Shown piece after piece: positions 1 to 29,794 of a DNA stretch of 31,053 nucleotides; position 1 is the stretch's first letter; each line of letters starts with the position of its first letter. The stretch is taken from the IMG/VR virus record IMGVR_UViG_3300003314_000005, positions 1 through 31,053 of that record. One strand, written 5' to 3'. This DNA is from a virus. Below the pieces are notes generated by a model. That model worked only from the letters and a program-made list of their open reading frames with translations, searched no databases and was not told where the DNA came from. Position numbers and translations under genes: made by a program.

Positions 1-2055
1 CAGCTCTCCGCGTGTTTCGTCCTCGAACCCGAGGACGACATGGAGGACATTTTCGAGAGTGCAAAGGACGCTGCTCTGGTCTTCCAGAGTGGGGGTGGCG
101 TTGGCTACTCGTTCTCTGATCTCCGACCGAAGGGCGCGTACATCAACTCCACGGGGGGCGAGGCCTCTGGCCCCGTATCCTTCATGCGCGTCTTTGACGA
201 GACGTGCAATCAGGTGAAGCAGGGTGGGAAGCGTCGTGGCGCTCAAATGGGCATCCTCCGAGTTGACCATCCCGACGTGGGCCGCTTTGCCGTGTCCAAG
301 CGTATGGAGGGGGAGTTCGAGAACTTCAACATCTCGGTGGGCTACACGGACGAATTCGTTGAGGCTGTCCAGAATGGTGAGAGCTACACGCTCTATGATC
401 CAACCACGGACTACGAGGAAGCCTACGAGGTTCGTGAGGCGTCGGAGAAGTTCTACAACCTCTCCTACGAAGATAACCCAGAAGACGCATACGACGACGG
501 TGAGGGTGCAGTAGTCAGCGAGAATCTCTGGCGTGATTACGCCGACGGGATTACGACGACTGACGGCGTGTCACTCCGAGAGAAGTGGGGTGGTGAGATT
601 CAGCTTGAAGCTGGTGAGGAGATGGAGCTTCCGGCTGAATTCCTCTGGGACATTATGATCGACGGGGCGTGGCAGAACGGTGAGCCGGGCCTCTTCCACC
701 TCGATGAGACGAATCGGGAACACTCCTTCGACGCTGACGAGTACCCGAAGCACGAGATCAATGCGACTAACCCCTGCGCCGAGCAGCCGCTTTCAGAGTA
801 CGAAGCGTGCAACCTCGGCCACATCAACCTGAGTCTGATTCTGGAGGAGAAGGCTCCCATGTTCGAGGAGTACGAGGAGACTCTTGATGTGGACAGTTCG
901 GTTGAGACGCTCATCGAGCATTACTTTGAGGAGGTCGTTGATTTCTCCCAGCTGGATCGCACCATTGAGGCGGGGGTTCGCTTCCTCGATAACGTGGTCA
1001 CTCAGTCTGACTTCCCCATCGAGGAGATCGAGGAGCGCGTGAGTGGTCAGCGGAAGATTGGCCTTGGTCTGATGGGCTTCGCACAGATGCTCTACCAGAT
1101 GGGGATTCCTTACGGGAGTGAGGAGTCCTACGAGATGGCTCGGTGTGTCATGCGATACATTGACCGGAAGGGTACTGACGTGTCGAATTCTCTTGCCAAG
1201 CAGAAGGGGAATTTCGACTACTGGGGGGAGAGCAAGTACGCTAATCCTGAGGAGTATTCCGAGTGGTTCGAGAACCACACGGGCCTTCCTGCTGAGGATT
1301 ACCCGGACGGCTACCCAATTCGGAATCACAACGTGACGACGATTGCGCCGACGGGAACCACCTCAATGATCGGAAACACTTCGGGTGGTTGCGAGCCGGT
1401 CTACAACGTTGCGAACTTCAAGAACGTCGGGAACGACATTCAGGGCGACGACGTTCTGGTGGAGTTTGACGACTACTTCCTTCGGTCGCTGGAGGCGAAC
1501 GATCTGCCTGTTGAGGAGATCAAGGAGGAAGCGGAACAGCTCATGCGTGAGAACGAATTCGACGGCGTTGACGACCTCCCAATTCCGGAGGAACTGAAGG
1601 AGATTTTCGTCACGACGCAGGATTTGACTTCTCGACAGCATGGTCTGATGCAGCGAGCGTTCCAAGAGTTCTGTGACTCTGGGATCAGCAAGACGGTCAA
1701 CATGCCGAACGATGCAAGCCGGGAGGACGTGGCTGACGCCTATGAGCTTGCGTTCGAGGACTCGGCCATCGGCGCTCCGATCAAGGGCCTGACGGTGTAC
1801 CGTGACGGCTCTCGTGACGAACAAGTGCTGACTACTCGGATGGACAACGGTCTTGATGATGAGAGTGAGGACGATCTTCTCGAACTCTACCTCAAGGGTG
1901 AGGTGTCCGAGAAGGCGGCTGAGCGCCTCGGTATTGTGTCGGAGGAAGACAAGGGCAAGGATACGATTACTTGTCCGGAGTGTGGTGACGGTGAGTTGGA
2001 GAAGACTGACGACTGTGCTGTGTGTTCGAAGTGTTTCTACTCTCCGTGCGCCTAA
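1..2055 (+). CDS. nrdJ: Class II (adenosylcobalamin-dependent) ribonucleotide reductase, 5'-truncated by the window
   Basis: Reduces ribonucleotides to deoxyribonucleotides for viral DNA synthesis. The frame is open from base 1 (QLSACFVLEPEDD...), so the start lies upstream; the ATG at 40 is internal. SACFVL carries the first catalytic-pair cysteine. Further family motifs are the NPCAEQ active-site loop (about residue 258 of the visible part), GLGLMGFAQ, and APTGTTSMIGNTSGG near residue 450. The C-terminus has the cysteine-rich tail CPECGDGEL...CAVCSKC...SPC that re-reduces the active site. The missing N-terminus should hold any ATP-cone. It works with Dcd and ThyX further along. It is followed head-on by the minus-strand tRNA-Arg gene, 1 base past its stop. 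Class II is favoured over class I by the NPC loop and the short C-terminal zinc/cysteine tail. Confidence 0.93.
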   Translation, partial: QLSACFVLEPEDDMEDIFESAKDAALVFQSGGGVGYSFSDLRPKGAYINSTGGEASGPVSFMRVFDETCNQVKQGGKRRGAQMGILRVDHPDVGRFAVSKRMEGEFENFNISVGYTDEFVEAVQNGESYTLYDPTTDYEEAYEVREASEKFYNLSYEDNPEDAYDDGEGAVVSENLWRDYADGITTTDGVSLREKWGGEIQLEAGEEMELPAEFLWDIMIDGAWQNGEPGLFHLDETNREHSFDADEYPKHEINATNPCAEQPLSEYEACNLGHINLSLILEEKAPMFEEYEETLDVDSSVETLIEHYFEEVVDFSQLDRTIEAGVRFLDNVVTQSDFPIEEIEERVSGQRKIGLGLMGFAQMLYQMGIPYGSEESYEMARCVMRYIDRKGTDVSNSLAKQKGNFDYWGESKYANPEEYSEWFENHTGLPAEDYPDGYPIRNHNVTTIAPTGTTSMIGNTSGGCEPVYNVANFKNVGNDIQGDDVLVEFDDYFLRSLEANDLPVEEIKEEAEQLMRENEFDGVDDLPIPEELKEIFVTTQDLTSRQHGLMQRAFQEFCDSGISKTVNMPNDASREDVADAYELAFEDSAIGAPIKGLTVYRDGSRDEQVLTTRMDNGLDDESEDDLLELYLKGEVSEKAAERLGIVSEEDKGKDTITCPECGDGELEKTDDCAVCSKCFYSPCA

Positions 2056-2056
2056 G

Positions 2057-2201
2057 TGGACGAGCCGGGACTTGAACCCGGACACCGAATTATCTGGACA
2101 CTTACAGAAACGACCGTTACAGGCCGAATCTTCAGCTTTCCATTGAGCGGTTGATTACCCCTTAGAAGGGGGCGACCTGTATCCAATTTGGCTACTCGTC
2201 C
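2057..2201 (-). tRNA. tRNA-Arg(UCU) with an insertion of about 70 nt between anticodon arm and T arm
   Basis: Acceptor strands GGACGAG (2195-2201) and CTCGTCC (2058-2064) pair perfectly, with discriminator A at 2057. T8-A9, the D arm, and the anticodon arm GCCCC-CTTCTAA-GGGGT (anticodon TCT, T33 present) are canonical, and the T arm CCGGG-TTCAAGT-CCCGG is perfect. Between GGGGT and the T arm lie about 75 nt instead of 4-5, so a non-canonical intron or an abnormal variable region is present; the usual 37/38 intron site is excluded because the anticodon loop is intact. The insert itself holds a D-arm-like GCTCAATGGAAAGC and a CGGCC/GGTCG hairpin. No CCA is encoded. AGA is usually a rare codon in haloarchaea, a reason for a virus to carry this tRNA. 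Isotype is confident; the splice sites are not. Confidence 0.8.
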
Positions 2202-2265
2202 ATCCCGTTGAGATTTCTCTCGGGCTTGCCTTCAAATTGGTGGCGAGGAAAAATTGTACGCAATT

Positions 2266-2297
2266 CCCCATCGGGTTAACGCCCGGTGGGGATTTTT
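2266..2297 (+). terminator. Stem-loop followed by T-run
   Basis: CCCCATCGGG (2266-2275) pairs with CCCGGTGGGG (2282-2291) with one wobble, loop TTAACG, then TTTTT at 2293-2297. It could end plus-strand transcripts coming from the reductase gene. On the minus strand the same stem lies between the 62-aa gene and tRNA-Arg. Confidence 0.5.
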
Positions 2298-2303
2298 CGT
2301 CGT

Positions 2304-2492
2304 TTAGGAGAGGAGCTTCTCTGCATCCACGTCGCCGTTTTTGATCTGTTCTTGCTCCCACTCCATCTCCCCCTCAATGCGGCCTAAGATTGTGGAGGCA
2401 TTGTGGCGATCCTCAGAGTCTCGATCTCGATCATCAACGATCTGCTGCATTTCGTGTTCGAGGAAGGCGAGTAGTCGAGTGTTGAGGTCCAT
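2304..2492 (-). CDS. Small acidic hypothetical protein (62 aa)
   Basis: Starts MDLNTRLLAFLEHEMQQ and is rich in Asp/Glu throughout, typical of haloarchaeal proteins, and mostly predicted helical. No recognised domain. It stands alone between the integrase region and tRNA-Arg, reading away from the integrase. The stop is 7 bases from the T-run of the hairpin at 2266-2297. Composition and a clean ATG support a real gene; function unknown. Confidence 0.6.
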   Translation of the reverse strand: MDLNTRLLAFLEHEMQQIVDDRDRDSEDRHNASTILGRIEGEMEWEQEQIKNGDVDAEKLLS

Positions 2493-2859: not shown

Positions 2860-3972
2860 ATGACCCCGAATCCCATCTCCGAAAAGAACGCACGCGCGCT
2901 CGAACACTTCCCACCACTCCACCGCGAAGACTATCGCGGCTTCAAGCAAGACTTCATGGAGTGGATGCTGGAGAAAGGAAAGAACCCCGTCAAGCACGAC
3001 GGATACTCCGAAAACACCCTCCGGCAAACCCACTACAAGCTGGAGGAAGTTTTCCGCTACCTCTGGAACGCGAAAGGAGAGTACACTACCGAAATTCCAC
3101 CGGAAGACGCCGACGAATTCCTCAACTCAATCCTCGGTCGCCAGAAGGACAAGGCAGTCATGGACTTCGTGAAATCAATCAAGCGATTCCACAAGTACCA
3201 GAACCACACGAAGGAGAAGCACTACGATTGGGACTACGAGAACAAGGACGAGCTGTCCGTCAGCGCGAACAGCAAGACGGTTGACTACTTCAAGCGCGAG
3301 GAGATGCACGCCCTCTATGAAGCGAGCCTCAGCAAAGGCTCCGTCAAGAGTTACCACAACAAGAAAATGACCGACGATGAGCGGGACCGGATTAAGATCC
3401 ACCTCGCTCAGCGATTTGAGAAGCAAAAGTCAGAGGTCACACCCGAGGACTTCTCCCGAGCAAATTCTTGGAAGTTCCCCTCGATTGTCTCGACGTGTAT
3501 CGACATTGGGCTTCGACCCATTGAGGTGGGGAAGGCGAAGGTAAGCTGGGTCAATACCAACGCCAACGAAATTATCATACCCGCGCGCGAGGCGACGAAG
3601 AATGACTCTCCGTGGGAGTGTAAGATCTCGAACAAGACCGCGCGCGCCTTAGATACCTGGCTGGATGAGCGAGCGACGTATGAAAAATACCAAGACAGCG
3701 ATAACCTGTGGCTCACCAAACACGGCAACCCCTATGGGAGTAACTCCCTTAACGGCCTGCTCGACCGTCTGATGGAGGAGACAGACATTCGTCCCCACGG
3801 TCGGAAGCTAACGTGGTACTCCATTCGACGTGGCTGCGCGACGATGTGGGCGAATGATGGTGGGATCGAAGAGGCCCAAGAACAACTCCGCCACTTGGAG
3901 CTGAAGACGACTCTCACATACACCAGTTCTCCCGGGAAGACTCGGGAGAATCGAGCGAACGACCTCTGGTGA
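2860..3972 (+). CDS. int: Tyrosine recombinase / integrase
   Basis: 370 aa, the usual length for haloarchaeal integrases. The N-terminal SAM-like core-binding domain is about residues 20-125. The catalytic domain shows Arg219 (GLRPIEV), Lys247 (EATKND), YSIRR with Arg323 in the HxxR box (His replaced by Tyr320), His345 (LRHLE) and the nucleophile Tyr354 (TLTYTSS). It should catalyse site-specific integration and excision at the tRNA-Gly site about 110 bp upstream. The ATG at 2860 follows a GGGTCACTCACA leader. It is the only plus gene in this region and converges on the GIY-YIG gene across a shared hairpin. Confidence 0.93.
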   Translation: MTPNPISEKNARALEHFPPLHREDYRGFKQDFMEWMLEKGKNPVKHDGYSENTLRQTHYKLEEVFRYLWNAKGEYTTEIPPEDADEFLNSILGRQKDKAVMDFVKSIKRFHKYQNHTKEKHYDWDYENKDELSVSANSKTVDYFKREEMHALYEASLSKGSVKSYHNKKMTDDERDRIKIHLAQRFEKQKSEVTPEDFSRANSWKFPSIVSTCIDIGLRPIEVGKAKVSWVNTNANEIIIPAREATKNDSPWECKISNKTARALDTWLDERATYEKYQDSDNLWLTKHGNPYGSNSLNGLLDRLMEETDIRPHGRKLTWYSIRRGCATMWANDGGIEEAQEQLRHLELKTTLTYTSSPGKTRENRANDLW

Positions 3973-4015: not shown

Positions 4016-4306
4016 TTACACACAGAACGATGGCGGATGGCTCATATCTGTTTCACACCAAGCAGCACCTCGAACAGACTCCCATCCAAATTCCAACATC
4101 AACTTCTTCGTCATCCACTTCTCATAGTCCTTAATGTCGGTTGAGACTTCCACCGTCTCTTTAACACTTACTGGTGCATGGAGCTTTGTCCACGCAGAAC
4201 CATTTCCATTGAAATGAGTTGAAATACGATCCTCAATGCTCTTCTTTGACATTCCCACGTAGTAGTTCTCCCCCTCAAGCTCCAACACATAAACCCCGCT
4301 ACTCAT
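4016..4306 (-). CDS. GIY-YIG nuclease-domain protein (96 aa)
   Basis: The single domain shows GVYVLEL...YYVGMS (GIY-YIG equivalents GVY and YVG), a catalytic-type Arg in DRISTHFNGNGSAWTK, and WMTKKLMLEFG, whose nearby Glu (YEKW) may be the metal ligand. Small single-domain GIY-YIG proteins of this type are common in phages and can be stand-alone endonucleases or repair nucleases. Last gene of the RtcB operon, right before the terminator hairpin. It could be a homing-type element or a branch/nick nuclease; substrate unknown. Confidence 0.75.
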   Translation of the reverse strand: MSSGVYVLELEGENYYVGMSKKSIEDRISTHFNGNGSAWTKLHAPVSVKETVEVSTDIKDYEKWMTKKLMLEFGWESVRGAAWCETDMSHPPSFCV

Positions 4307-4590: not shown

Positions 4591-5957
4591 CATGCTTTGA
4601 AGTTGACCTTCGGAACAAGCCGATCCATGATCTCGGCTGTGGGCTTGATCTGCTCCTCGATGAGAGACGTTTCCTTATACGCTTCCGGAACCTCGTCAGT
4701 CGGGACATTCGTGGAGTACGTCCCGTTCGCGTACATCCGCTGCCGAACCTCGTCAGAATCGAACTGGTCGTGTGCCCATCCACGGGAACCGAGTCGGCCA
4801 GCTCCATGAGGTGCGGAGTTATTCCACTCGTCATTCCCCTTGCCACGACAGACAAGCGTCCCATCTTCCATGTTCATCGGAACGACGAACTGCTCATTCT
4901 TCCCAGCTCGCGTCGAACCCTTCCGAATGACGCCATCAGCGAAGTCCACGTAGTTGTGGGGTGAGTTAATCATGTGATAGATCTCCGCATTGAGGTGGGT
5001 CGCCACTTCCTCTGCCATCAGATACCGACTCGTAGAGGCGTACTGCTGGGCAAACACCATATCCTTCAGGTAATCGAACATCTCGTCACCTTCCAGATAA
5101 TCCAACTTGGTATTCCGGTTCGGGTCCGGACTGAATTCATCAATCCGATCCCCCATCTCACCAATGGCTTCACCGTCGAAGTCCTCTTTAATACGCTCCC
5201 AGAACGGAGATCCATCGGACATGGTGTACTCCTTCAGCTCCTCATCCATCTCCCAGCGAAGAACCCGAGAGCGGTGGAACGTCGCGTCGTCTTGATGGAA
5301 TCCAGCAACCTTCTGACCGAGATTCCGACTACCGGAGTGAACGACGACCCAGATCGAGCCATCGTTCTCAGACTCAGCCACCTCAATGAAGTGATTCCCA
5401 CCGCCGAGACTGCCGAGGGAATCCTTCGCATACTTCTCTGAGATGCCGACCTTCTCACACAGCTCTTCGAAATACTCAACGTCGAACTTCTCGTCTTCGT
5501 ACTCTCGATCCCCCAGAACCTTCTCGGGAAGGTAATCGAACATCATCTTAAGGGTGATGTTCGCATGAGGGATGGGGTAGAGGTCCTCGAAGTCTTCTTC
5601 AGAACGATCATTCACCCGCCCCATCCCCATCGGAACGCTCTGACGTACCTTTTCATTGAGTGGGCGAAGGTCGTCAATATCATCGAGGTTAACCTCCACG
5701 TCGTTGAGCTTCGCCGCTGTCATTCCACACCCAATGTCCCCACCGACCGAGTTCGGGATGATACGGTTCCCAAGCTGCATCGAGAAGCCAACGATTGCGT
5801 GGGGACCAAGCCCGCCGTGAACGTCCGGCATGTACTTGATCGGATTCTGGAACGCTCGATTGTCCACCTGTTCCTGAATCTCCTCGCCCAGCCCTTCCTC
5901 GATGTGTTCCTCTGGAAGCTTTACGTCAGCCGTCGTGTGTTCTCCTTCGACAATCAT
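4590..5957 (-). CDS. rtcB: RNA-splicing ligase RtcB (3'-phosphate/5'-OH RNA ligase)
   Basis: 455 aa, near the family norm. RtcB joins 2',3'-cyclic-phosphate and 5'-OH RNA ends, the chemistry of archaeal tRNA exon joining and of tRNA repair. Family residues visible: MPDVHGGLG (43-51), Asp74 and Cys77 in GGDIGCGM (Mn ligands), GGGNHF with Asn188/His189, HSGSR at 207, SPHNY with His334, KGSTRAG at 346, and His384 in SAPHGAGR, the residue guanylylated by GTP. No intein. Its ATG overlaps the stop of the upstream 171-aa gene (ATGA). No archease-like gene is adjacent. The window also encodes interrupted tRNAs, which makes splicing or repair of viral tRNAs a natural role. Confidence 0.96.
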   Translation of the reverse strand: MIVEGEHTTADVKLPEEHIEEGLGEEIQEQVDNRAFQNPIKYMPDVHGGLGPHAIVGFSMQLGNRIIPNSVGGDIGCGMTAAKLNDVEVNLDDIDDLRPLNEKVRQSVPMGMGRVNDRSEEDFEDLYPIPHANITLKMMFDYLPEKVLGDREYEDEKFDVEYFEELCEKVGISEKYAKDSLGSLGGGNHFIEVAESENDGSIWVVVHSGSRNLGQKVAGFHQDDATFHRSRVLRWEMDEELKEYTMSDGSPFWERIKEDFDGEAIGEMGDRIDEFSPDPNRNTKLDYLEGDEMFDYLKDMVFAQQYASTSRYLMAEEVATHLNAEIYHMINSPHNYVDFADGVIRKGSTRAGKNEQFVVPMNMEDGTLVCRGKGNDEWNNSAPHGAGRLGSRGWAHDQFDSDEVRQRMYANGTYSTNVPTDEVPEAYKETSLIEEQIKPTAEIMDRLVPKVNFKA

Positions 5958-6469: not shown

Positions 6470-6553
6470 CTCTACCTTTCTCTCTAATGTAACACTACAT
6501 TGAGTGAGTTAGAACACAACCACCTCAATGCAGTTTTACTTTGTACTAAAACA

Positions 6554-6598
6554 CTACAGTACAGCACAGCACAACTACAGCACAGCAGTACATTGTAC
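6554..6598. repeat. CAGTACAG/CACAG short direct-repeat array (copy 1)
   Basis: CTACAGTACAGCACAGC then ACTACAGCACAGCAGTAC: degenerate 5-8 bp units built on CAG and TACAG, ending in ATTGTACGC. It lies in the leader between promoter element copy 1 and the 171-aa gene. A related array occurs at 26751-26814, likewise beside a copy of the element. Confidence 0.6.
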
Positions 6599-6618
6599 GC
6601 GACCCTGACTGCCTCTGA

Positions 6619-6672
6619 CTGCCTCTACCGTATAGACGGCGGCTAAGGACTTAAAGATACCGGAATAAGTCT
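6619..6672 (-). promoter_or_regulatory. Intergenic promoter/operator element, copy 1
   Basis: On the plus strand: CTGCCTCTACCGTATAGACG, about 10 bp, then GGACTTAAAGATACCGG and AATAAGTC. Read on the minus strand it offers a TATA-like CTATACGGTAG for the RtcB operon, with the CTTAAAGATACCG block as an upstream partial dyad (GACTTA...TAAGTC). A preceding partial duplicate CTGACTGCCTCTGACTGCC is present. Four other copies share this core. Confidence 0.6.
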
Positions 6673-6689
6673 TTAACAGTTAACACCCA

Positions 6690-6797: not shown

Positions 6798-7358
6798 CTA
6801 CTCGAAGTCTTCGTGAAGGCGACTCGGTGTCGTCCCCTCCTGTTCGTCGTACTTGTTCCCGTTATATTTCGAGTAGCCCACGTCCGGTGCGGTCTTCACT
6901 TCATGGAAGGTGATCTGACCGATTCGCATCCCCTCTTGTAGGCGGATGTGGTTCCGAGAAGCGTTGAACAGCTCCAGCGTAATCTCACCAGAGAAACCTG
7001 GGTCGATCAGGCCGGCGTTCTCGATGAACATTCCAAGTCTGCCGACCGACGAGCGACCGTGTAGATAGCCCACTATGCCGTTTGGGATGTTGACCGTCTC
7101 CTCGGTCGTCCCGAGGACAAAACTCCGTGAGCCAATCGTGTAGCCGCCCTCCATCTCCCGCTCGTAGTAGCCGGGGTAGGTCGACTCATCAGTCACGTCA
7201 ATCACCCCTCCAACCTTCTCCTCAATGAGCAATTCCTCTCCGAGGTGAACGTCGACGGAAGCTGGCTCCACGTCCACTTCATCATCCCCACCTTCAACCA
7301 GCGGGGTATCATCATAGACGACGCTACGGCGAATGTCTTCTCTCCCAAGAACACTCAT
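6798..7358 (-). CDS. dcd: dCTP deaminase (possibly bifunctional with dUTPase)
   Basis: 186 aa, typical of the trimeric Dcd/Dut fold. Converts dCTP to dUTP, feeding dTMP synthesis by ThyX in the same operon. Motifs: GRSSVGRLGM (101-110, phosphate-binding Arg/Ser), NAGLIDPGFSGEITLEL (114-130) with the catalytic Glu in TLEL, and the C-terminal lid QEGTTPSRL (173-181). Some archaeal homologues also hydrolyse dUTP; the sequence alone does not decide. Start overlaps the upstream lipoprotein stop by four bases. Confidence 0.93.
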   Translation of the reverse strand: MSVLGREDIRRSVVYDDTPLVEGGDDEVDVEPASVDVHLGEELLIEEKVGGVIDVTDESTYPGYYEREMEGGYTIGSRSFVLGTTEETVNIPNGIVGYLHGRSSVGRLGMFIENAGLIDPGFSGEITLELFNASRNHIRLQEGMRIGQITFHEVKTAPDVGYSKYNGNKYDEQEGTTPSRLHEDFE

Positions 7359-8124: not shown

Positions 8125-8395
8125 CGAAGATTCTCACAACGTCCCTCATCGGCCCGCTGATGTTCAGACCACTCTCCATTGTGAAGCGGAATTCGTGTGG
8201 ATCTGCTCCGAATCCTTGGGTGAAGCTCAAACTCCGAATTGTCTGCGTCTTCCCTCCAACGTCCACTTCGTCGCCAGCAGAATAGCCATAGACGACTCGC
8301 TGGGGGTACTCATCATCCTCATTCTCCTCCGGAGTATCATCCTCAATGGACTCTACATTGAGGGAGAGGGTGAGCTGAATCTCTTTCTCAGTCAT
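8117..8395 (-). CDS. Hypothetical protein (92 aa)
   Basis: ATG at 8395 chosen because it overlaps the upstream stop as ATGA; an in-frame ATG four codons earlier is also possible. Reads MTEKEIQLTLSLNVESIED..., an acidic centre, then a strand-rich C-terminal half (GDEVDVGGKTQTIRSLSF, FRFTMESGLNI) compatible with a small beta domain. No family recognised. Confidence 0.65.
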   Translation of the reverse strand: MTEKEIQLTLSLNVESIEDDTPEENEDDEYPQRVVYGYSAGDEVDVGGKTQTIRSLSFTQGFGADPHEFRFTMESGLNISGPMRDVVRIFDE

Positions 8396-9321: not shown

Positions 9322-9331
9322 GCTCAGAAAA

Positions 9332-19371: not shown

Positions 19372-19374
19372 TCA

Positions 19375-22223: not shown

Positions 22224-22274
22224 TGAGTTAGGTTCTGTTGTCGCACCGTTGGTTATCAGTCAATTCAGCACCAA

Positions 22275-22302: not shown

Positions 22303-22375
22303 TCGGAACCCCCGGGTTTGAACCGGGAACGGCGTGGTCTACAGCCACGTTCCCTTCCGAGTGGGATTGATTCCG
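22303..22375 (-). tRNA. tRNA-Tyr(GUA)
   Basis: Acceptor CGGAATC/GGTTCCG with the archaeal C1-G72 tyrosine identity pair, D stem TCCC/GGGA, anticodon arm CGTGG-CTGTAGA-CCACG (anticodon GTA), T arm CCCGG-TTCAAAC-CCGGG, discriminator A. Position 8 is A instead of the near-universal T, which is odd. No intron and no encoded CCA. Confidence 0.88.
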
Positions 22376-22549
22376 TGGGCGGGTGATTTTCTATTATTGA
22401 CCGCGACCCTCAGCGCGGTCTTCCCAATTTCTGACCATGTTCCTTCCCCATTTCCAAATGAGGTCGGCGTCCCGTCCTTGAGCAACGTCCGGTTGCAGTT
22501 GAGTCTCTTTGAGCGTCCAAGCTCTCAAGTTCCGGATGCGAGCCGGAAG
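22376..22549 (-). ncRNA. Structured spacer between tRNA-Asn and tRNA-Tyr, possible ncRNA
   Basis: 174 nt without an open frame of quality. On the minus strand there are three hairpins in order: TTCCGG-CTCGCAT-CCGGAA, GCAAC-CGGAC-GTTGC and GACCGCG-CTGAGGGT-CGCGGTC, the last followed by AATAATAGAAAATC. Flanked by two tRNAs, its ends would be released by tRNA processing. No T-arm signature, so not an ordinary third tRNA. Nature unknown. Confidence 0.4.
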
Positions 22550-22622
22550 CGCCGAAGCGAGGGATCGAACCTCGAACCACCACGTTAACAGCGTGGCACT
22601 CTACCAATTGAGTTACCTCGGC
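22550..22622 (-). tRNA. tRNA-Asn(GUU)
   Basis: Acceptor GCCGAGG/CTTCGGC, T8-A9, D arm ACTC...GAGT, anticodon arm CCACG-CTGTTAA-CGTGG (anticodon GTT), T arm CGAGG-TTCGATC-CCTCG, discriminator G. Fully canonical. First RNA gene behind element copy 3, whose TATA-like box is about 34 bp upstream. Confidence 0.93.
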
Positions 22623-22647
22623 AGAAGAGTAGAAGGTGTCCTGGCTG

Positions 22648-22692
22648 CCCGTACTATACAAACAACAGCCAAGGACTTAAAGATACCGACTT
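22648..22692 (-). promoter_or_regulatory. Intergenic promoter/operator element, copy 3
   Basis: CCCGTACTATACAAACAACA then GCCAAGGACTTAAAGATACCG and ACTTACTTC on the plus strand. Minus-strand TATAGTACGG faces tRNA-Asn. Most similar to copy 4 at 25406. Confidence 0.65.
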
Positions 22693-22698
22693 ACTTCT

Positions 22699-22809
22699 TT
22701 AGACGATAGAAATCATGTAGAAGATCCACAGAATGACGCTCAGATAGAGAAGATAATCAGGTGGAATTCCACCATTAGAATTGAGGAAACTCCCACTCAA
22801 TGCCGTCAC
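22699..22809 (-). CDS. Membrane microprotein, GTG start (36 aa)
   Basis: MTALSGSFLNSNGGIPPD then YLLYLSVILWIFYMISIV: one C-terminal transmembrane helix. GTG overlaps the upstream stop as GTGA. It ends 7 bp from promoter element copy 3, as the 33-aa microprotein does at copy 1. Confidence 0.5.
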   Translation of the reverse strand: MTALSGSFLNSNGGIPPDYLLYLSVILWIFYMISIV

Positions 22810-23000
22810 ACGTAGGGGATGAACGGAATGAGATCCATCTGCGGAACCACACCAGCAGCAGCGAGGAAGAAGTAGACAGTCAGAACCACGAGAAGGAAGA
22901 AGAATAGAGAGATGAAGAAACCAACAACAGCCATCTTCCGCTGCGTCTTTGCTGCCTGTTCCATGAACTTGTCGTCGTGTAGGTCTGAATCGTGATTCAT
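22806..23000 (-). CDS. Single-span membrane protein (64 aa)
   Basis: Charged N-terminus MNHDSDLHDDKFMEQAAKTQ, then a hydrophobic helix VVGFFISLFFFLLVVLTVYF and a PxxxLIPFIPYV tail. The following microprotein is coupled to it, suggesting a two-component membrane complex. Function unknown. Confidence 0.7.
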   Translation of the reverse strand: MNHDSDLHDDKFMEQAAKTQRKMAVVGFFISLFFFLLVVLTVYFFLAAAGVVPQMDLIPFIPYV

Positions 23001-23006
23001 GCGGGA

Positions 23007-23141
23007 TTACGCAGGAGTCAGCGAAGCTGAATTGCCGGGAGTTGTCTCGGGGTGTCGGAGCATGATGCCCGGTGGGCTGGGACCGTCGTCGTCTTCATCG
23101 TCACGTTTCACCTCATTGAGGGAGGGGGACTCGTCACTCAT
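23007..23141 (-). CDS. Disordered acidic microprotein (44 aa)
   Basis: MSDESPSLNEVKRDDEDDDG then PSPPGIMLRHPETTPGNSAS: low complexity and probably disordered. ATGA overlap with the 140-aa gene upstream and 6 bp before the membrane protein, which supports it as a coupled gene. Confidence 0.5.
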   Translation of the reverse strand: MSDESPSLNEVKRDDEDDDGPSPPGIMLRHPETTPGNSASLTPA

Positions 23142-23560
23142 TCTGCCACCTCAGTCTGAAGCTCATCGAATCGGAGGGAGAGCGTCCCATTCTCGAACGT
23201 CGCCATGATGCTCTCACCCTGAAGCTTACCGAGGTCGCTCACCTGGTCGATGTTGTAGTAATCGAGCAGTTCGAATAGCTCATGGGTCGTGTCACCCATC
23301 TCAGCGTCGGGGAGATTGTACTCGATGTTGGGCGGCTCAGGATCTCCCTGCTGGGTGAACGTGGGGATCTGAACCATGTAGTCCGTCGAGAACTGACCGC
23401 CGCGATCAACGAGCCGAGGCTCTCCGAACTCAGTCACGTATCTGCTATCGCCGTCAATGTTCTCCAGAATTGCGTGGAAAACGTCGTCCGAGTTGCCGAC
23501 GATGTTGTTATCAACCGAATCGTTGCTGCCGAACAGGATGTTCCGAATATATCCAAACAT
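23138..23560 (-). CDS. Hypothetical protein (140 aa)
   Basis: MFGYIRNILFGSNDSVDN... with strand/loop-rich middle (GGQFSTDYMVQIPTF) and C-terminal ESIMATFENGTLSLRFDEL. An alternating hydrophobic pattern suggests a beta sandwich of the small heat-shock (Hsp20) kind, but this is weak. First protein after the two proline-type tRNAs on the same transcript. Confidence 0.7.
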   Translation of the reverse strand: MFGYIRNILFGSNDSVDNNIVGNSDDVFHAILENIDGDSRYVTEFGEPRLVDRGGQFSTDYMVQIPTFTQQGDPEPPNIEYNLPDAEMGDTTHELFELLDYYNIDQVSDLGKLQGESIMATFENGTLSLRFDELQTEVAE

Positions 23561-23609
23561 TATCTATCTCTCTGCCGCACAGCTGGTGTCCCGTGAGGTC
23601 TGGGACAAT

Positions 23610-23720
23610 TGGGCTACGGGGATTTGAACACCCGCTCTCCAATTCATCGCTCGGGGAGCTACCCCCACAGGAGCTACCTGTACTCCGAATTGGCGTCATA
23701 CCTGATTTAGACCTTAGCCC
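23610..23720 (-). tRNA. Intron-containing tRNA, probably tRNA-Pro(CGG)
   Basis: Acceptor (T)GGGCTA/TAGCCC(A), D arm GTCTAAATCAGGTATGAC, and an anticodon stem CCAATTC/GAATTGG enclosing about 42 nt, hence an intron near the 37/38 site. With T33 placed, the anticodon reads CGG (Pro), matching the GGG start; a one-base shift reads GGA without T33. The intron has two hairpins with the same TAGCT loop (ACAGG-TAGCT-CCTGT and GGGG-GTAGCT-CCCC). The T arm has one extra base: CGGGTGTTCAAATCCCCG. Position 8 is not T. Processing and activity uncertain. Confidence 0.6.
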
Positions 23721-23724
23721 AAAA

Positions 23725-23795
23725 TGGGGAGGAGAGGAATCGAACCTCTATCCCGACCACCCAAGGGTCGAATGTTCCCATTGCACCACCTCCCC
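23725..23795 (-). tRNA. tRNA-Pro(UGG)
   Basis: Acceptor GGGGAGG/CCTCCCC, D arm GTGCAATGGGAACAT, anticodon arm CGACC-CTTGGGT-GGTCG (anticodon TGG), T arm AGAGG-TTCGATT-CCTCT, discriminator A. Canonical and intronless, four bases upstream of the intron-bearing tRNA. Confidence 0.9.
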
Positions 23796-23897
23796 AATGC
23801 CGTATTTCTTTAGACGCCCGGTTCCGGTCCTTTCACCCGGCGGCGTCCTCACATGACCTGTATAATTATTCCAAGGCCTCTCGGTCAAGGAGACATG

Positions 23898-24000: not shown

Positions 24001-24106
24001 TCTCCTGAAGTGACTCGAACACACTTACCCCCGCTATCCACCGACTCAATGAGCCGTCATTACGGGATGAGAACCTATCGGGTGCAAATCCGCTTCCTCT
24101 CAGGAG
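24001..24106 (-). tRNA. Aberrant tRNA-like gene, isotype unassigned
   Basis: CTCCTGA (24100-24106) pairs perfectly with TCAGGAG (24002-24008). The T-arm region AAGTGTGTTCGAGTCACTT carries a TTCGAGT T-loop between AAGTG and CACTT but with two extra bases. The interior is about 70 nt with small hairpins (CCGT-AATG-ACGG) and no convincing D or anticodon arm. It may be a tRNA with introns, a decaying tRNA, or a tRNA-like processing signal. Confidence 0.4.
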
Positions 24107-24396: not shown

Positions 24397-25265
24397 TACT
24401 CATCCTCGTTCTCGCCGTCTTCCACCTCCTTCGTGAGAGTCATGCCACTCTCACCAACGTAGATCGTCTCGCCCTCCTTCAGCGCCTCAATGTACTTCAC
24501 CTTCAGAAGCTCGGGATTGTCCTTCAGGGACTCAGCAACGATCTCGTTCGCCTTTGCCTCCCCCTCAGCCTCAATTCGCTTTCGCTCGGCCTCGTTCTCT
24601 GCGACCTTGATCTCGTTCGCCTTCTTCTCGATGTTCTGCTTCTCCACTTCCTTCTTCTCTACCGCATCAGCGTACTGTTCTGGAAGGTGGATACGTCGAA
24701 TCTGAACCGCCTCGATGGTGATTCCAGTCCCCTCAGTCTCCTTGTCGAGTGCAGCTCGAACTGCATCTCGCATTTCGTCCTGTCCAACTCCGGTGTAAAT
24801 CTCGGAAGTATCAATATCGCCACCCTCAGTCCGGAGAACCGAACGAGTGGTCGGGCGGATTAGGCGTTCCTGGGCCTGAGCGTTCGACTTGTACTCCTCG
24901 TAGAAGGTATCTGCCTCGCTCTTGTCCACCCGGTAACGAACAGACACGTCAACGTCAACGCTCACACCATCATTGGTGAGAACATTGACGGAATCATCAG
25001 CGCCAGTATTCCCATCACCCTGCCCACTCGTCGCGCTCATCGTGTAGGTCTGAGGGCGAGTTTCGACAACTGCGGTACTCTGCTTTACCGGAGTAATCCA
25101 GTTCGCACCCGGCTCAAGCGTCTCTCCCGTACTATCTCCCCACGTCTTCACGACCTCAACCTCTCCCTGCTGGACGGGATTCCACGCCATCGCCCCACCA
25201 ACAGCGACCGTGAGTAGTAGAAATGCCGTTACAACAGCTCCAATTTTCAGTTTGAGCATATTCAT
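24396..25265 (-). CDS. SPFH/band-7 (prohibitin/stomatin-like) membrane protein
   Basis: 289 aa from the ATG at 25265; an open frame continues upstream to 25319 but would overlap the tRNA-like gene. An N-terminal signal-anchor (GAVVTAFLLLTVAVGGAMAW) is followed by an SPFH domain (GEVEVVKTWG..., VDVDVSVRYRVDKSEADTFY, LRTEGGDIDTSEIYT), then a long Glu/Lys/Ala coiled coil (AVEKKEVEKQNIEKKANEIK) and a short acidic tail. These proteins form membrane scaffolds and modulate proteases such as FtsH. An SPFH protein is unusual in a virus. Confidence 0.88.
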   Translation of the reverse strand: MNMLKLKIGAVVTAFLLLTVAVGGAMAWNPVQQGEVEVVKTWGDSTGETLEPGANWITPVKQSTAVVETRPQTYTMSATSGQGDGNTGADDSVNVLTNDGVSVDVDVSVRYRVDKSEADTFYEEYKSNAQAQERLIRPTTRSVLRTEGGDIDTSEIYTGVGQDEMRDAVRAALDKETEGTGITIEAVQIRRIHLPEQYADAVEKKEVEKQNIEKKANEIKVAENEAERKRIEAEGEAKANEIVAESLKDNPELLKVKYIEALKEGETIYVGESGMTLTKEVEDGENEDE

Positions 25266-25374: not shown

Positions 25375-25405
25375 AAAACTGCCGGGGGACGAAGGGGCTA
25401 TCACT

Positions 25406-25455
25406 CCCTCCGTACTATAACAACAACGGCCAATGACTTAAAGATACCGGAATAG
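25406..25455. promoter_or_regulatory. Intergenic promoter/operator element, copy 4
   Basis: CCTCCGTACTATAACAACAA then GGCCAATGACTTAAAGATACC and GGAATAGTTC. It lies between divergent units: the minus TATAGTACGG faces the tRNA-like/SPFH unit about 42 bp away, and CTTAAAGATACCG could be the TATA box for the plus-strand zinc-finger gene at 25529. Confidence 0.65.
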
Positions 25456-25528
25456 TTCTTTGGAGTGATAACCGACCGAAGGGCCGGGGGATAAAGACTT
25501 ATTACTCTCGGGTTATTCATTAGAACTA

Positions 25529-26077: not shown

Positions 26078-26599
26078 GCCCCATTCGTCGCGGAAGTATT
26101 CTGGAGTGTATTTCGTTGATCCTCGCTCAATTGGATAGCCCTCAAGCTCGCTCTTCAACTCAACCACCTCAATGAATTCTTCCTTATTCTGTGGAGGCTC
26201 CTCTTCGAACTTCGGGAGAATCTCATTGAGGAAGAAATCTGCTCGATCATGTTGTTGGACGAAGCCGGGGATGATAGGGTCGAGGAATCGAGCAATTTCA
26301 TCCGAATTACCGATCTCCATCTGGATCGAGCTGCCGGTTGAATTCTCGAAGTATCGAGGTGTTATGTCCAACTGCTCACAGTAATCGTCAACGACTTCGT
26401 AGAATAACTCCCCCTCATTGGGGCGTGACATACGAAGTCGTGGATTGATCGTGTAACCGAGGTTCACTCGGTCGTCTTTCTTGATGTTGACTTGGAAGTT
26501 CCCGATGCAGTCAACCGCTCCAGAAAGATACCAGAGTAATCGTTTCTCCATACTACCCTCAATCGTTCCGTCGTCTGTTAATCCTGTTGTAACTACCAT
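26072..26599 (-). CDS. LAGLIDADG-type homing endonuclease-like protein (175 aa)
   Basis: YLSGAVDCIGNFQVNIKK (24-41) matches the LAGLIDADG helix-strand start with Asp30 as the only clear acidic residue of the motif; then GYTINPRLRMSR and GELFYEVVDDYCEQLDI, the usual saddle strands and helix. IGNSDEIARFLDPIIPGF and ADFFLNEILPKF mark the second half. A single-motif protein would act as a dimer. Free-standing, not inside an intron or intein here. Promoter element copy 5 lies just upstream. Confidence 0.7.
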   Translation of the reverse strand: MVVTTGLTDDGTIEGSMEKRLLWYLSGAVDCIGNFQVNIKKDDRVNLGYTINPRLRMSRPNEGELFYEVVDDYCEQLDITPRYFENSTGSSIQMEIGNSDEIARFLDPIIPGFVQQHDRADFFLNEILPKFEEEPPQNKEEFIEVVELKSELEGYPIERGSTKYTPEYFRDEWGL

Positions 26600-26620
26600 G
26601 TCATTCTCTAAGAGTTATAT

Positions 26621-26664
26621 CGGTATCTTTAAGTCATTGGCTACCGTCTATACAGTAGAGGCAG
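26621..26664 (-). promoter_or_regulatory. Intergenic promoter/operator element, copy 5 (inverted)
   Basis: On the minus strand: CTGCCTCTACTGTATAGACG, then GCCAATGACTTAAAGATACCG and ATATAACTC. In this orientation CTTAAAGATACCG is about 30 bp before the ATG at 26599, while the reverse TATACAGTAG box faces the plus genes at 26845. Same bidirectional layout as the other copies. Confidence 0.65.
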
Positions 26665-26750
26665 TTTCAGTCGTACTATTCCTTATACTGTTTACTCTGC
26701 TGTAATAGTCTGTACTAAACAACCTACTCAATGTAGAGTTACGTTCAATT

Positions 26751-26814
26751 CTACAGTACAGCAGTACAGCAGTACAGCACAGCAGTACAGCAGTACAGTA
26801 TAACACTACAGTAT
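26751..26814. repeat. CAGTACAG direct-repeat array (copy 2)
   Basis: About eight units of CAGTACAG/CACAG in direct orientation, most exactly 8 bp, ending CAGTATAACACTACAGTATG. The AGTATAACAC at the end could be the TATA box of the gene at 26845. Shares TACAGTACAGC with the array at 6554. Confidence 0.7.
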
Positions 26815-27330: not shown

Positions 27331-27788
27331 GTCTCTTCACGGTCCTTCGGGATACCCGAGAGCAGGAGGGCTACGGGTATTACTTCGAGGATTATCCCGT
27401 CGACGTGAAGGAAGTGACTCTTACTACAGGGGATTACGCCATTGAGGAGGCTGGGTATTACGGAAAGAACAAAACGTATCATCCACCCTTTGCCGTCGAG
27501 CGAAAGGCTCAGGGAGATCTGATCTCCTCAATCACAGCTGATCGAGATCGTTTTGAGGACGAAATCGAGCGAGCTGCTGACTGGGATGCTCCAATGCCAG
27601 TTGTCGTTGAATCCCCACTCAATGAATTCAAGCAGGGGAATTATTACGCCGATGTTCACCCCAATGCGATCATCGGCACCGTCGACAAGTGGCCAGACTA
27701 CAAAAACGTCGACTTCTTCTTCCGAGACAACGAAGCTGATGCAGAGAAATTCGCGTTCGAGATGCTACGCTGGTGGAAGAATCGGTAA
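27327..27788 (+). CDS. ERCC4/XPF-type nuclease domain protein (153 aa)
   Basis: Shows the ERCC4 active site GDX(n)ERKX3D: Gly35-Asp36 (TTGDYAIE), then Glu58-Arg-Lys60...Asp64 (AVERKAQGDLISSI), plus an N-terminal RDTREQEGY and VVVES strand. It is a bare nuclease domain without helicase or helix-hairpin-helix regions, so it needs a partner for specificity. XPF-type enzymes cut branched DNA near ss/ds junctions; here it would act in viral replication or recombination. Last gene of a two-gene plus-strand unit. Confidence 0.85.
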   Translation: MSLFTVLRDTREQEGYGYYFEDYPVDVKEVTLTTGDYAIEEAGYYGKNKTYHPPFAVERKAQGDLISSITADRDRFEDEIERAADWDAPMPVVVESPLNEFKQGNYYADVHPNAIIGTVDKWPDYKNVDFFFRDNEADAEKFAFEMLRWWKNR

Positions 27789-28773: not shown

Positions 28774-28776
28774 TGT

Positions 28777-29304
28777 CTAAACTCCCGCTTCTTTCGTCTT
28801 TGGCGTTGACTGAGATCCAGTCCCCTCGATCCAACTCCAGTAGATGTTCTCGACTTCCTCAGCGTATCCCTCCTCAATGTAGATATTCCCATATTGGGAG
28901 AAGACCGCCGGAGCTGGGAGATTAATCTCGCCGGACAAGACCAGCCGCTTGAACCGCTTCTTGTCGTGGTAATCATACCGCCACCCTGAGAGGCCCACAC
29001 TCTCCATCTCAGAGCTTTCGTAGAACGTCCCTCGGTAGGACACCTCGTCGGTCTTCATCGCCGAGGCAGACTCCCCAACGGCCAGCAGTTCGAGCGCAGT
29101 CCGGAGGGGAGTCCCTTCGTAATCCCGCTCCCAGAATTGATGCCCCCACATCCCCTCTCCAGTTTCAACGTAGTGCTTGAACACCTTCCCGTCGTAGGAC
29201 ATAATCCCGGTGACTGTCCCATCCGGAAGCACTCCTTTGTAGTCCGTTCCGTACCCCTCGATAGCGAATTCTCGATCAGTCAGCTTGTCTTCTTCTTTTA
29301 CCAT
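28777..29304 (-). CDS. Hypothetical protein (175 aa)
   Basis: Strand- and aromatic-rich (YGTDYKGVLPDGTVTGIMSY, GMWGHQFWERDY, YGNIYIEEGYAEEVENIYW). No domain recognised. Overlaps the 37-aa zinc protein by seven bases. C-terminus is Thr/Lys-rich and probably disordered. Confidence 0.7.
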   Translation of the reverse strand: MVKEEDKLTDREFAIEGYGTDYKGVLPDGTVTGIMSYDGKVFKHYVETGEGMWGHQFWERDYEGTPLRTALELLAVGESASAMKTDEVSYRGTFYESSEMESVGLSGWRYDYHDKKRFKRLVLSGEINLPAPAVFSQYGNIYIEEGYAEEVENIYWSWIEGTGSQSTPKTKEAGV

Positions 29305-29411
29305 TCGTATCGACCTCCTCCGAGGCTACTTGTCTGACATTCAGTACACGTATCACCCATTCGTGGGACAGAATTGTTACATCCCATCTGAGAGCATTTT
29401 ATAACTGGCAT
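29298..29411 (-). CDS. Zinc-knuckle microprotein (37 aa)
   Basis: The start ATG at 29411 is set by the TAATG overlap with the 50-aa gene; the longer open frame upstream is spurious. MPVIKCSQMGCNNSVPRMGD then TCTECQ: CX4C and CX2C knuckles. Confidence 0.55.
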   Translation of the reverse strand: MPVIKCSQMGCNNSVPRMGDTCTECQTSSLGGGRYEW

Positions 29412-29563
29412 TAGTATTCCTCCATTCCGACAGCGCAAGCGAAACAGGGAACAGCTGAGTTGATGCTGTACCAAGTTCCACAATCAGGACATTGCTGGAC
29501 GTTTCCTTCACCGTAGATTTCTAACGCTTCTTCTTTCGGTCGAGGGGGAGATTGTCGTTTCAT
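29411..29563 (-). CDS. Zinc-ribbon microprotein (50 aa)
   Basis: Basic N-terminus MKRQSPPRPKEEALEIYGEG, then QCPDCGTWYSINSAVPCFAC: two CxxC knuckles 14 residues apart. Starts right behind the 76-aa gene. Confidence 0.65.
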   Translation of the reverse strand: MKRQSPPRPKEEALEIYGEGNVQQCPDCGTWYSINSAVPCFACAVGMEEY

Positions 29564-29794
29564 TCACTCCTCCTCAATGGAGTGAACCGGCGAGTTCCCC
29601 TTCAGACGGTCAAACTCCTTGTCGATATACGACTCCATCTCACCCAACGCCGCTTCAACACAGTCCATCGCAGCATCCTCACGACCAGCGTTGTACCGCT
29701 CTTCGTCGTGAAGCATCTGCGCTTCCTTCAGGTGGTGGATCGCACTTTCCAGCTCGGTCAGCTCGTCGTGGGGATCTTCAGGCGTGTCGGGCAT
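29564..29794 (-). CDS. Acidic coiled-coil protein (76 aa)
   Basis: ATG at 29794 preferred over a TTG two codons earlier. MPDTPEDPHDELTELESAIH... continues as heptad-like helices (AIHHLKEAQMLHDEERY, AALGEMESYIDKEFDRL). Likely a small helical bundle; function unknown. Confidence 0.65.
   Translation of the reverse strand: MPDTPEDPHDELTELESAIHHLKEAQMLHDEERYNAGREDAAMDCVEAALGEMESYIDKEFDRLKGNSPVHSIEEE

Follow-up and report, generated by a model that had tools for sequence, protein, structure and literature searches.

The window analysed here is a 31,053-base virus record of IMG/VR (IMGVR_UViG_3300003314_000005), a partial genome related to the HF1/HF2-type myoviruses of haloarchaea (Hafunaviridae). 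Its gene order is that of VOLN27B, with homologues of ribonucleotide reductase, integrase, RtcB, dCTP deaminase, ThyX and PolB, followed by a PD-(D/E)XK nuclease, an exonuclease, a primase-like protein and prohibitin. The window PolB is 62-64% identical to the 40 matches listed, and two partial genomes, L136 and G001/L010, are nearer relatives (76-78%). Across this gene set a short word recurs, CATTGAG (CTCAATG on the other strand), which we find to be a real and sharp signal at the DNA level, kept beyond what the protein, codon use and avoidance of palindromes account for. We compared it with words in relatives fetched by PolB, foremost six HF2-type viruses that are close kin of one another (VOLN27B, HF2, HRTV-14, HJTV-2, HRTV-5 and Hardygib1).

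Excess of the core word in the window

On the given strand the window holds 26 copies of CTCAATG and 22 of CATTGAG, 48 in all, where base composition predicts 3.5. The word is the commonest of the 6,934 strand-merged 7-mers (runner-up, 33 copies) and also ranks first by a trinucleotide model. By the same model, the 11-mer CCACCTCAATG occurs seven times (four and three by orientation) against 0.022 expected and CTCAWTGAG nine times against 0.6. A preliminary description of this DNA had given the same three counts, which are exact on recount; the Markov-type background that it proposed, here the trinucleotide model, predicts 6.2 copies of the 7-mer, not about 48.

Gene-based counts use our own list of 31 window genes, and small unlisted genes may sit outside it. 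Coding copies were set against two nulls: a looser shuffle of synonymous codons (500 shuffles), and a strict null in which protein, codons and codon-junction dinucleotides stay fixed and avoided palindromes can never rise (40 samples for the window counts). The 34 coding copies compare with 9.4 ± 2.8 under the former (maximum 18) and 10.4 ± 2.6 under the latter (maximum 15), so that the earlier claim of an enrichment not explained by codons holds. Outside the listed genes, 12 copies lie in 7,992 nucleotides (1.4 expected), and two more straddle gene edges. Ranked by the strict null among words with at least eight copies, CATTGAG comes first of 713 in the window, of 592 in G001 and of 112 in L136. 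The core is sharp: in the pooled window clade CATTGAG has 115 copies against 15 expected, while its 21 one-base neighbours lie mostly at 0.4-1.5 times expectation (12), with two below and seven above, the highest being CATCGAG (73 observed, 21 expected), then CATAGAG (17, 7), CATTGAC (28, 12) and CAATGAG (34, 15).

Some details of the preliminary description had to be revised. One codon register holds 30 of the 34 coding copies (19 as C-ATT-GAG in sense, 11 as CTC-AAT-G in antisense; 4 elsewhere), and to say that copies lie in all reading frames is too strong; the register itself does not produce the excess. None of the 48 copies lies within either tRNA called by ARAGORN (22549-22622 and 23724-23796), where one had been placed inside a tRNA insert. 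Nor is the palindrome a separate signal: AG follows 9 of the 48 CTCAATG and 17 of the 111 CAATG (the 48 included), and CTCAWTGAG is a by-product.

The 48 cores are listed below with the strand of CATTGAG in brackets and a flank score, taken from a profile trained on the flanks of CATCGAG in HF2-type viruses.

963-969 (+), flank 4.7; CATCGAG in VOLN27B and HF2
1362-1368 (-), flank 4.6, in an 11-mer copy; CTCGATG in VOLN27B and HF2
2141-2147 (+), flank -1.5; outside called genes
2373-2379 (-), flank 2.7; outside called genes
3519-3525 (+), flank 3.7, in an 11-mer copy; CATCGAG in VOLN27B and HF2
4232-4238 (-), flank -0.2
4988-4994 (+), flank 4.3, in an 11-mer copy; CTCGATG (Leu-Asp) in VOLN27B and HF2, Leu-Asn in the window
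5382-5388 (-), flank 7.2, in an 11-mer copy; CATCGAG in VOLN27B and HF2
5654-5660 (+), flank 2.1
6498-6504 (+), flank 4.2; outside called genes
6524-6530 (-), flank 7.4, in an 11-mer copy; outside called genes
7221-7227 (-), flank 1.2
8342-8348 (-), flank 0.6
8356-8362 (+), flank -0.8
8626-8632 (+), flank -3.3
9477-9483 (+), flank 5.0
9787-9793 (-), flank 3.0
10580-10586 (+), flank 3.8; polB
11081-11087 (+), flank -4.0; polB
11472-11478 (+), flank 4.1; polB
11970-11976 (-), flank -1.4; polB; CATTGAG in VOLN27B and HF2 as well
12009-12015 (-), flank 3.7; polB
12492-12498 (-), flank 2.4; outside called genes
13157-13163 (+), flank 5.6, in an 11-mer copy; CTCGATG (Leu-Asp) in VOLN27B and HF2
13851-13857 (+), flank 1.3; outside called genes
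14926-14932 (-), flank 5.9; CATCGAG in VOLN27B, CATTGAG in HF2
15272-15278 (-), flank 3.2; outside called genes
15621-15627 (-), flank 0.5
15803-15809 (+), flank -1.9
17630-17636 (-), flank 2.2
17815-17821 (+), flank 1.9
18337-18343 (-), flank 3.7
19003-19009 (-), flank 4.0
19068-19074 (+), flank 4.9; CTCGATG (Leu-Asp) in VOLN27B and HF2
19564-19570 (-), flank 1.3; CATCGAG in VOLN27B and HF2
20800-20806 (+), flank -0.7; at a gene edge
22221-22227 (+), flank 3.2; at a gene edge
22796-22802 (-), flank 1.3; outside called genes
23114-23120 (+), flank 6.1; outside called genes
24045-24051 (-), flank 0.4; outside called genes
24486-24492 (-), flank 2.8; CATCGAG in VOLN27B and HF2
26168-26174 (-), flank 8.0, the window's highest; in an 11-mer copy
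26224-26230 (+), flank 1.8
26727-26733 (-), flank 4.1; outside called genes
27440-27446 (+), flank 2.9
27618-27624 (-), flank 4.5
28873-28879 (-), flank 3.0
29573-29579 (-), flank 4.8; outside called genes

Conserved flanks and a longer, asymmetric site

Positions are numbered on the CATTGAG core as 1-7, with flanks from -10 to 0 and from 8 onward. Compared with other C-NNN-GAG words, the copies of the window and L136 favour G at -8 (67% against 31%), T at -5 (44 against 21), A at -3 (59 against 32) and T at -1 (46 against 27) on the left, and G at 8 (56 against 28), 10 (58 against 33) and 11 (73 against 31) on the right; CATCGAG in these two genomes has no flank preference in the same comparison. 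HF2 alone gives G(-10), G(-8), T(-5), A(-3), A(-2), C(-1) and G(0) on the left and G(8), C(9), G(10), G(11), T(12) and T(13) on the right. We tested the flanks against the strict null in four sets (the window clade, HF2, VOLN27B and HJTV-2). G(-8) and G(+8) are in excess in all four, G(+10) in three, and G(+11) and T(-5) in two; at -1, C is in excess in the three HF2-type sets and T in the window clade. The surest flanks are G at -8, +8, +10 and +11; likely ones are T at -5, A at -3 and either pyrimidine at -1. Since G is conserved at +8, +10 and +11, the 11-mer CCACCTCAATG represents the right-hand half of the site and comes nearer to the true site. The flank consensus is asymmetric, without the dyad symmetry of a palindromic operator that binds a dimer.

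The held-out profile (positions -9 to 0 and 8 to 14), trained solely on CATCGAG flanks of the six HF2-type viruses, transfers to the other core. In the window clade its mean is 2.05 for CATTGAG and -0.01 for CATCGAG; for CATTGAG in HF2-type genomes it is -1.15. Coding CATTGAG copies of the window average 2.75 against 0.10 under the strict null (z 5.3), with scores above 3 in 18 of 35 where 1.7 are expected, and window CATCGAG averages -0.64 against -0.20. Pooling the clade, G001 included, gives z 8.1 for CATTGAG and 2.0 for CATTGAC. With the copies aligned to HF2-type CATCGAG removed, 89 of the 115 CATTGAG keep a mean of 1.64 and 58 of the 73 CATCGAG a mean of 0.01 (permutation P 0.0003).

We then asked which of the 64 C-NNN-GAG cores carries the flanks. 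It is CATTGAG in the window (z 7.8, next 1.7) and in L136 (5.9), CGATGAG in HSTV-2 (4.7), HRTV-7 (4.8), L144 (5.1) and L143 (3.4), and CATCGAG in the untrained L137 (8 copies, 3.8) and L138 (17 copies, 4.2). Twelve sets outside this pattern (HGTV-1, HVTV-1, HCTV-2, HHTV-1, phiCh1, HRTV-4, L146, L147, L151, L153 and two host sets) have maxima of 0.6-3.0 with varying cores, among them CATCGAG in HGTV-1 (2.7) and HVTV-1 (2.2) and CGATGAG in phiCh1 (2.6). Against the strict null, the CGATGAG flanks reach z 5.2 in L144, 4.0 in L143 with its duplicate L145 (the same virus, 99.8% over 4.5 kb, and not counted as independent) and 3.5 in HSTV-2. Because flanks beyond the 7-bp core beat a codon-preserving null and recur across different core spellings, a site of protein-binding type, one of the roles first proposed, is supported at the level of sequence.

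Lineage dialects of the core

CATCGAG is the top 7-mer in all six HF2-type viruses, with 121-160 copies against 15-20 expected by a simple model (160 against 19.5 in HF2, 141 against 16.8 in HRTV-14), and CATTGAG is near or below expectation there (3-8 against 6.4-8.5). CATTGAG has 31 copies against 2.3 in L136 by the trinucleotide model. Five of the six lack GATC and CTAG, and VOLN27B has 60 and 1; avoidance of many palindromes in HF1-group viruses is described in passages of PMC7230728. Part of the CATCGAG excess is consequently indirect, because palindrome avoidance inflates words like NNTCGAN. In the first 50 kb of HF2, 81 copies compare with 21.2 under a plain codon shuffle and 37.2 ± 5.7 under the strict null, so that the ratio falls from 3.8 to 2.2 once junction dinucleotides and avoidance are built in. 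By the strict null CATCGAG ranks 1 in HF2, 6 in VOLN27B, 2 in HRTV-14, 4 in HJTV-2, 3 in HRTV-5 and 1 in Hardygib1, the words above it being set aside for an apparently avoided palindrome inside them, which the sampler never lets rise, or for overlap with the motif. A backward-read control was not applied to CATCGAG: the backward word contains AGCT, which is absent from HRTV-7 and gave a count of 0 in HSTV-2 and HRTV-7.

GATC is not avoided in the window (154 sites) or L136 (157 sites); CTAG is absent from both, and G001 and HF2 lack both words. In G001, both dialect words are present (36 against 6.6 and 30 against 5.6). CATCGAG was also tried as the dialect of the Mincapvirus lineage and rejected: although first by the simple model, it falls to ranks 12 and 13 under the strict null, and the flanks go with CGATGAG instead. 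Two changes, the fewest possible for three dialects, suffice on a PolB tree of 19 rows, and none of 200 shuffles did as well; in this tree G001 carried no label and L149 the label CGATGAG despite its weak typing, its PolB row being an unusually long open reading frame (ORF). Judged by core and flanks together, the comparison shows one kind of site with dialects by lineage: CATTGAG in the window, CATCGAG in the HF2 lineage and CGATGAG in the Mincapvirus lineage. Copies per kb number about 2 in HF2-type viruses, 1.55 in the window, 1.9 in L136 and, for CGATGAG, 1.25 in HSTV-2.

We also observed that CTCASTG words are strongly depleted, perhaps as an avoided restriction target: in HF2-type viruses CACTGAG occurs once and CAGTGAG not at all (54 expected for each), and in the window clade they occur 5 and 1 times against 12.

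Positions, spacing and orientation

Alignment of 27 window genes with VOLN27B reveals that the core has, in part, changed in place. VOLN27B has CATCGAG at 42 of 84 permitted positions overall and at 10 of the 11 that lie under a window CATTGAG. G001 shares window CATTGAG positions at 9 of 16 against 20 of 69. HF2-type viruses retain their copies among themselves (for example 49 of 56 from HF2 to VOLN27B). HF2 to HRTV-5 is the only pair for which controls were run: 69 of 74 motif copies persist, and so do 2 of 3, 16 of 25, 38 of 48 and 21 of 23 copies of four control words; since the controls are also kept, conservation among these viruses is not by itself evidence. Leu-Asp has become Leu-Asn at three window sites (3 of 9, against 30 of 317 other Asn), a number too small to build on.

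The motif is the most evenly spaced testable 7-mer in each of the six HF2-type viruses (first of 22, 18, 6, 5, 5 and 10), with a coefficient of variation (CV) of 0.70-0.76 where random placement gives about 0.98. In the window it is first of 14 (CV 0.69, P 0.0065), and CGATGAG is evenly spaced in HSTV-2 (CV 0.79, P 0.02). Each full 5-kb bin of HF2 contains 4-15 copies, in early and structural genes alike. All copies together are skewed by strand (93/67 in HF2, 62/96 in VOLN27B), the strong ones less so (47/39 and 40/50). Relative to genes, sense and antisense copies number 43 and 38 in HF2 (1-50 kb) and 19 and 15 in the window. No excess occurs within 60 bp of listed gene starts, with 7 copies against 5.7 in the window and 5 against 11.8 in HF2 (1-50 kb).

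Haloarchaeal chromosomes

A host-matched word was considered and rejected, as the haloarchaeal chromosomes sampled hold nothing comparable. Across 148 genomes from the family to which Halorubrum G002 belongs, CATTGAGG stays at or below about 0.06 per kb, against 0.9 in the window; one of them, G009, has 82 copies against 10 of a backward control, or 0.043 per kb. This survey counted CATTGAGG rather than CATCGAG and took low-GC members of the family together with the rest. Five pooled haloarchaeal stretches give 34 CATCGAG against 24.6 and 9 CATTGAG against 9.1. In 400 kb of four named genomes (160, 100, 80 and 60 kb), CATTGAG occurs 9 times against 11.4 expected and CATCGAG at 1.4-2.2 times the trinucleotide model (ranks 71-541); the 160 kb of Halorubrum have 3 CATTGAG against 5.4 and 71 CATCGAG against 50.6 (rank 541 of 4719). 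HF2-type viruses of Halorubrum, Haloarcula and Haloferax hosts have one common dialect, which favours either a reader brought by the virus or a host protein that is very conserved.

Conserved proteins and a candidate reader

We searched 47 HF2 proteins (first 50 kb, structural module left out) across the relatives. Those present in the window, G001, HSTV-2, L144 and L149, and absent or remote in 60 kb each of HGTV-1 and HVTV-1, are the HF2 protein of 22321-23814, a primase-like protein, a calcineurin-like exonuclease, a Zn-ribbon-like CxxC protein, a 116-aa protein, a PD-(D/E)XK nuclease, PolB and the integrase. In the window most of them fall in a replication/recombination block that may contain the reader of the site, with homologues in HF2, G001, HSTV-2, L144 and L149.

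14185-20802 (-), candidate reader block
14185-15156 (-), PD-(D/E)XK nuclease
16121-16474 (-), 116-aa protein
16464-16874 (-), Zn-ribbon-like CxxC protein
16955-18148 (-), calcineurin-like exonuclease
18145-19371 (-), primase-like protein
19375-20802 (-), protein with a P-loop-like stretch, seen by eye

Since the conserved proteins belong to replication and recombination, a role there is the first guess; the guess is weakened because fetching relatives by PolB favours such genes. No DNA-binding reader emerged when part of the window proteins were searched against Pfam and PHROG, and the structure prediction for the 475-aa protein was unusable (predicted local distance difference test, pLDDT, 34.7). 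The stretch around 305-310, at the putative nick sites annotated near the HF2 terminal repeats, holds no motif copy.

Other features of the window and its relatives

Short-repeat arrays of the ACAGCAGTACAGCA type occupy two intergenic places of the window (6546-6597 and 26743-26810). The polB of G001 (L010:9977-13410) is split by an HNH-like ORF (12059-12802), a pattern that would suit the insertion of a mobile intron or endonuclease. HJTV-2 carries, between ribonucleotide reductase and integrase (L016:6048-9325), an annotated TATA-binding protein, a winged-helix protein, an N4-cytosine methylase, a Trm112-like protein and an Eco29kI-like restriction enzyme. The annotation of HF2 places a predicted type II hammerhead ribozyme ahead of the Rad3-like helicase (L013:10292-10359).

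Interpretation and alternatives

The explanation that fits best overall, and that we consider probable, is a dispersed recognition site of a lineage-specific DNA-binding factor, with co-evolving dialects. The motif would be the core of a roughly 20-bp asymmetric site, found genome-wide at about 1.5 per kb in both orientations; its reader would be a single sequence-specific DNA-binding factor belonging to the virus lineage, and more probably a product of the virus than of its host. The reader would have changed its preference for the middle three bases, and the sites of the genome would have followed. As to purpose, a tentative and rather unlikely guess is that the reader comes from the conserved replication/recombination block and that the sites label the viral DNA throughout, much as Chi or uptake sequences do. 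Somewhat less doubtful, and still short of an even chance, is a self-recognition code in which a virus-encoded reader marks the whole genome and the dialects CGATGAG, CATCGAG and CATTGAG switched together with it. Such a code could control recombination, packaging or exclusion between lineages.

If this is correct, a cis-acting signal has gone unrecognised in about 160 copies in the well-studied HF1/HF2 genus, the virus family has lineage dialects of it, and genome-wide self-marking, as by Chi and uptake sequences, extends to archaeal viruses. The dialects would then be a natural experiment, in which the DNA-contacting residues of a conserved virus protein should track the core letters and hybrids between lineages should reveal the function of the site. 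Such signals lie mostly within genes and escape annotation.

Several observations weigh against a single site kept for one reader. The reader is a putative factor, and its binding to the site is deduced from conserved letters. Among the flanks, A(-3) fails the strict null, and the flank score is below zero in 8 of the 48 window copies. CATCGAG is modestly over-represented in the window too (27 against 15.3, z 3.3, strict null), without the flanks, and has a slight flank excess in the pooled clade (z 2.0; 9 copies above 3 against 2.8 expected). By flank score G001 mixes dialects, with well-flanked CATCGAG mostly in its first 20 kb (z 3.7) and well-flanked CATTGAG mostly in its last 9.5 kb (4.8), as if this virus (L127, L128) were in transition or a recombinant. 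The core is modestly over-represented in Mincapvirus (by the strict null, 59 CGATGAG against 33.7 in HSTV-2, at rank 17), and L149 lies within background (CGATGAG z 2.5, strict null 1.2), unrelated genomes reaching 3.0 among the 64 cores. Pooled z values are inflated by the close kinship of the six HF2-type genomes.

Two mappings proposed at the outset came out mixed. Conservation of positions in related haloviruses is seen with VOLN27B and G001, is weaker with HF2 (9 of 13 under window sites, 40 of 79 overall), and for CATTGAG is absent with L136 (2 of 5 against 16 of 27). The mapping of spacing and strand bias bore out both orientations and, at first, an even spacing in the window; when draws are restricted to permissive coding places, this evenness is gone in the window (P 0.74) and marginal in HF2 (P 0.058; nearest-neighbour P 0.035). 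It is also absent in G001 (third of 4), L136 (third of 3) and L144 and lost among the strong copies of the window and HJTV-2. Finally, the structural module of HF2 has about twice as many antisense copies as sense ones (31 and 14).

The next choice after replication/recombination marking, itself unlikely, is genome compaction or packaging, with a virion or nucleoid protein binding a site every few hundred bp in either orientation. The copies in every 5-kb bin of HF2, across early and structural modules, are what such a protein would leave, as are strong copies without strong orientation preference and the even spacing of HF2-type viruses. This spacing, however, is not found in all carriers, and the terminal repeats annotated in HF2 imply that packaging ends need no dispersed sites.

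A dispersed operator or silencer, by which a virus repressor bound at many sites would silence the provirus or early transcription, is more doubtful still. P1 C1 and the mycobacteriophage stoperators are many-site repressor systems. An asymmetric site of about 20 bp would suit a repressor; besides the integrase gene in these viruses, there are known proviruses of the HF1 group (in passages of PMC7230728). Yet 34 of the 48 window copies are intragenic, with no excess near listed gene starts, and the direction relative to genes is inconsistent (43/38, 14/31 and 19/15 sense/antisense).

We rate slightly lower, as improbable, the earlier suggestion of a modification or restriction site, in which CATYGAG would be the target of an asymmetric N6-methyladenine (m6A) methylase of virus or host, kept for marking. 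Asymmetric words ending in GAG resemble the targets of bacteriophage exclusion (BREX) and MmeI-like enzymes, which counts for it. According to passages of PMC7230728, most HF1-group members have an N-6 methylase gene with a target other than GATC, and a portion of PMC8651126 links a virus-encoded Dam methylase to high GATC density. However, the HF2 N6-methylase (ORF 41372-45238) has no blastp match (1e-4) in nine groups, some partial, including the window, G001, HSTV-2, L144, HRTV-14 and HJTV-2 (the methylases of VOLN27B, HRTV-5 and HJTV-2 were not queries), yet HRTV-14, HJTV-2, HSTV-2, G001 and the window carry the motif or a dialect. The annotation of HRTV-14 from 25 to 74 kb shows no methylase, with CATCGAG at full density (141 against 16.8). 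Flanks outside the core matter, and other restriction targets are purged in the HF1 group (PMC7230728, in part). A virus-encoded modification site is thus disfavoured on the genomes compared.

That codon use, codon-pair context or avoided palindromic restriction sites generate the word as a by-product is very improbable. The rise of the HF2 null from 21.2 to 37.2 and the single register of 30 of the 34 window coding copies point that way. The excess nevertheless survives in the window and HF2 under the strict null (34 against 10.4; 81 against 37.2), the flanks beat it too, neither the window (154 sites) nor L136 (157) avoids GATC, and 12 copies against 1.4 lie outside called genes; we reject codon use or palindrome avoidance alone as the cause. 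The footprint of a mobile short repeat, suggested by the many near-identical 7- to 11-mers, is scarcely credible, as VOLN27B shares positions in conserved codons with the core altered in place (CATCGAG at 10 of 11 permitted positions) and the repeat families of the window show no longer unit common to the copies.

Comparison with known systems

Among the papers listed from the open-licence literature on haloviruses, haloarchaea and over-represented words, a scope that leaves out the original HF1/HF2 genome papers, we found no report of this dispersed site, and there was no match for CATCGAG together with archaea and virus; a term search of PMC8727067 turned up one unrelated passage. The recognition site proposed here can be set beside four systems. 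The class I and II promoter repeats of HF2 are repeated elements of the same virus genus, but at 58 and 29 bp they are few, intergenic and AT-rich (PMC8707807, in part), whereas the present site is shorter, far commoner and mostly genic (34 of 48 copies in genes). The window also has an AT-rich repeat of 56 to 67 nucleotides with a GACTTAAAGAT core (6618-6684, 9331-9397, 22644-22710, 25405-25471 and 26610-26665), which by description, unaligned, looks like the HF2 class I repeats. The GATC sites of phiCh1-type viruses with a virus Dam methylase are likewise a short word at high density in some archaeal tailed viruses (PMC8651126, in part), but GATC is palindromic and tied to its methylase, whereas no methylase common to all carriers was found here and the site has flanks.

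Chi, read by RecBCD or AddAB and frequent in some temperate phages, is likewise a short, asymmetric and strongly over-represented word, and phages can depend on it; its density is 0.2 per kb against about 1.5-2 for the halovirus site (both statements on Chi from passages of PMC3784561). Chi is over-represented in the host of its reading enzyme, whereas the sampled haloarchaeal chromosomes, which need not include the host of the window virus, show nothing comparable. The halovirus site also differs in that its conserved flanks reach out to -8 and +11; its strand skew, seen when all copies are counted, shrinks among the strong ones, which have no strong preference.

Uptake signal sequences (USS) of Pasteurellaceae and DNA uptake sequences (DUS) of Neisseriaceae are chromosomal marks read in transformation, whereas here the genome is that of a virus and the reader is putative; we know of no DNA uptake machine for these viruses. 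In form the two are alike: uptake sequences have a short strong core with weaker flanks at about one relatively evenly spaced copy per kb (in passages of PMC7811141) and differ by lineage in dialects (PMC3630211, in part), and the halovirus site has both a core with weaker conserved flanks and dialects by lineage.

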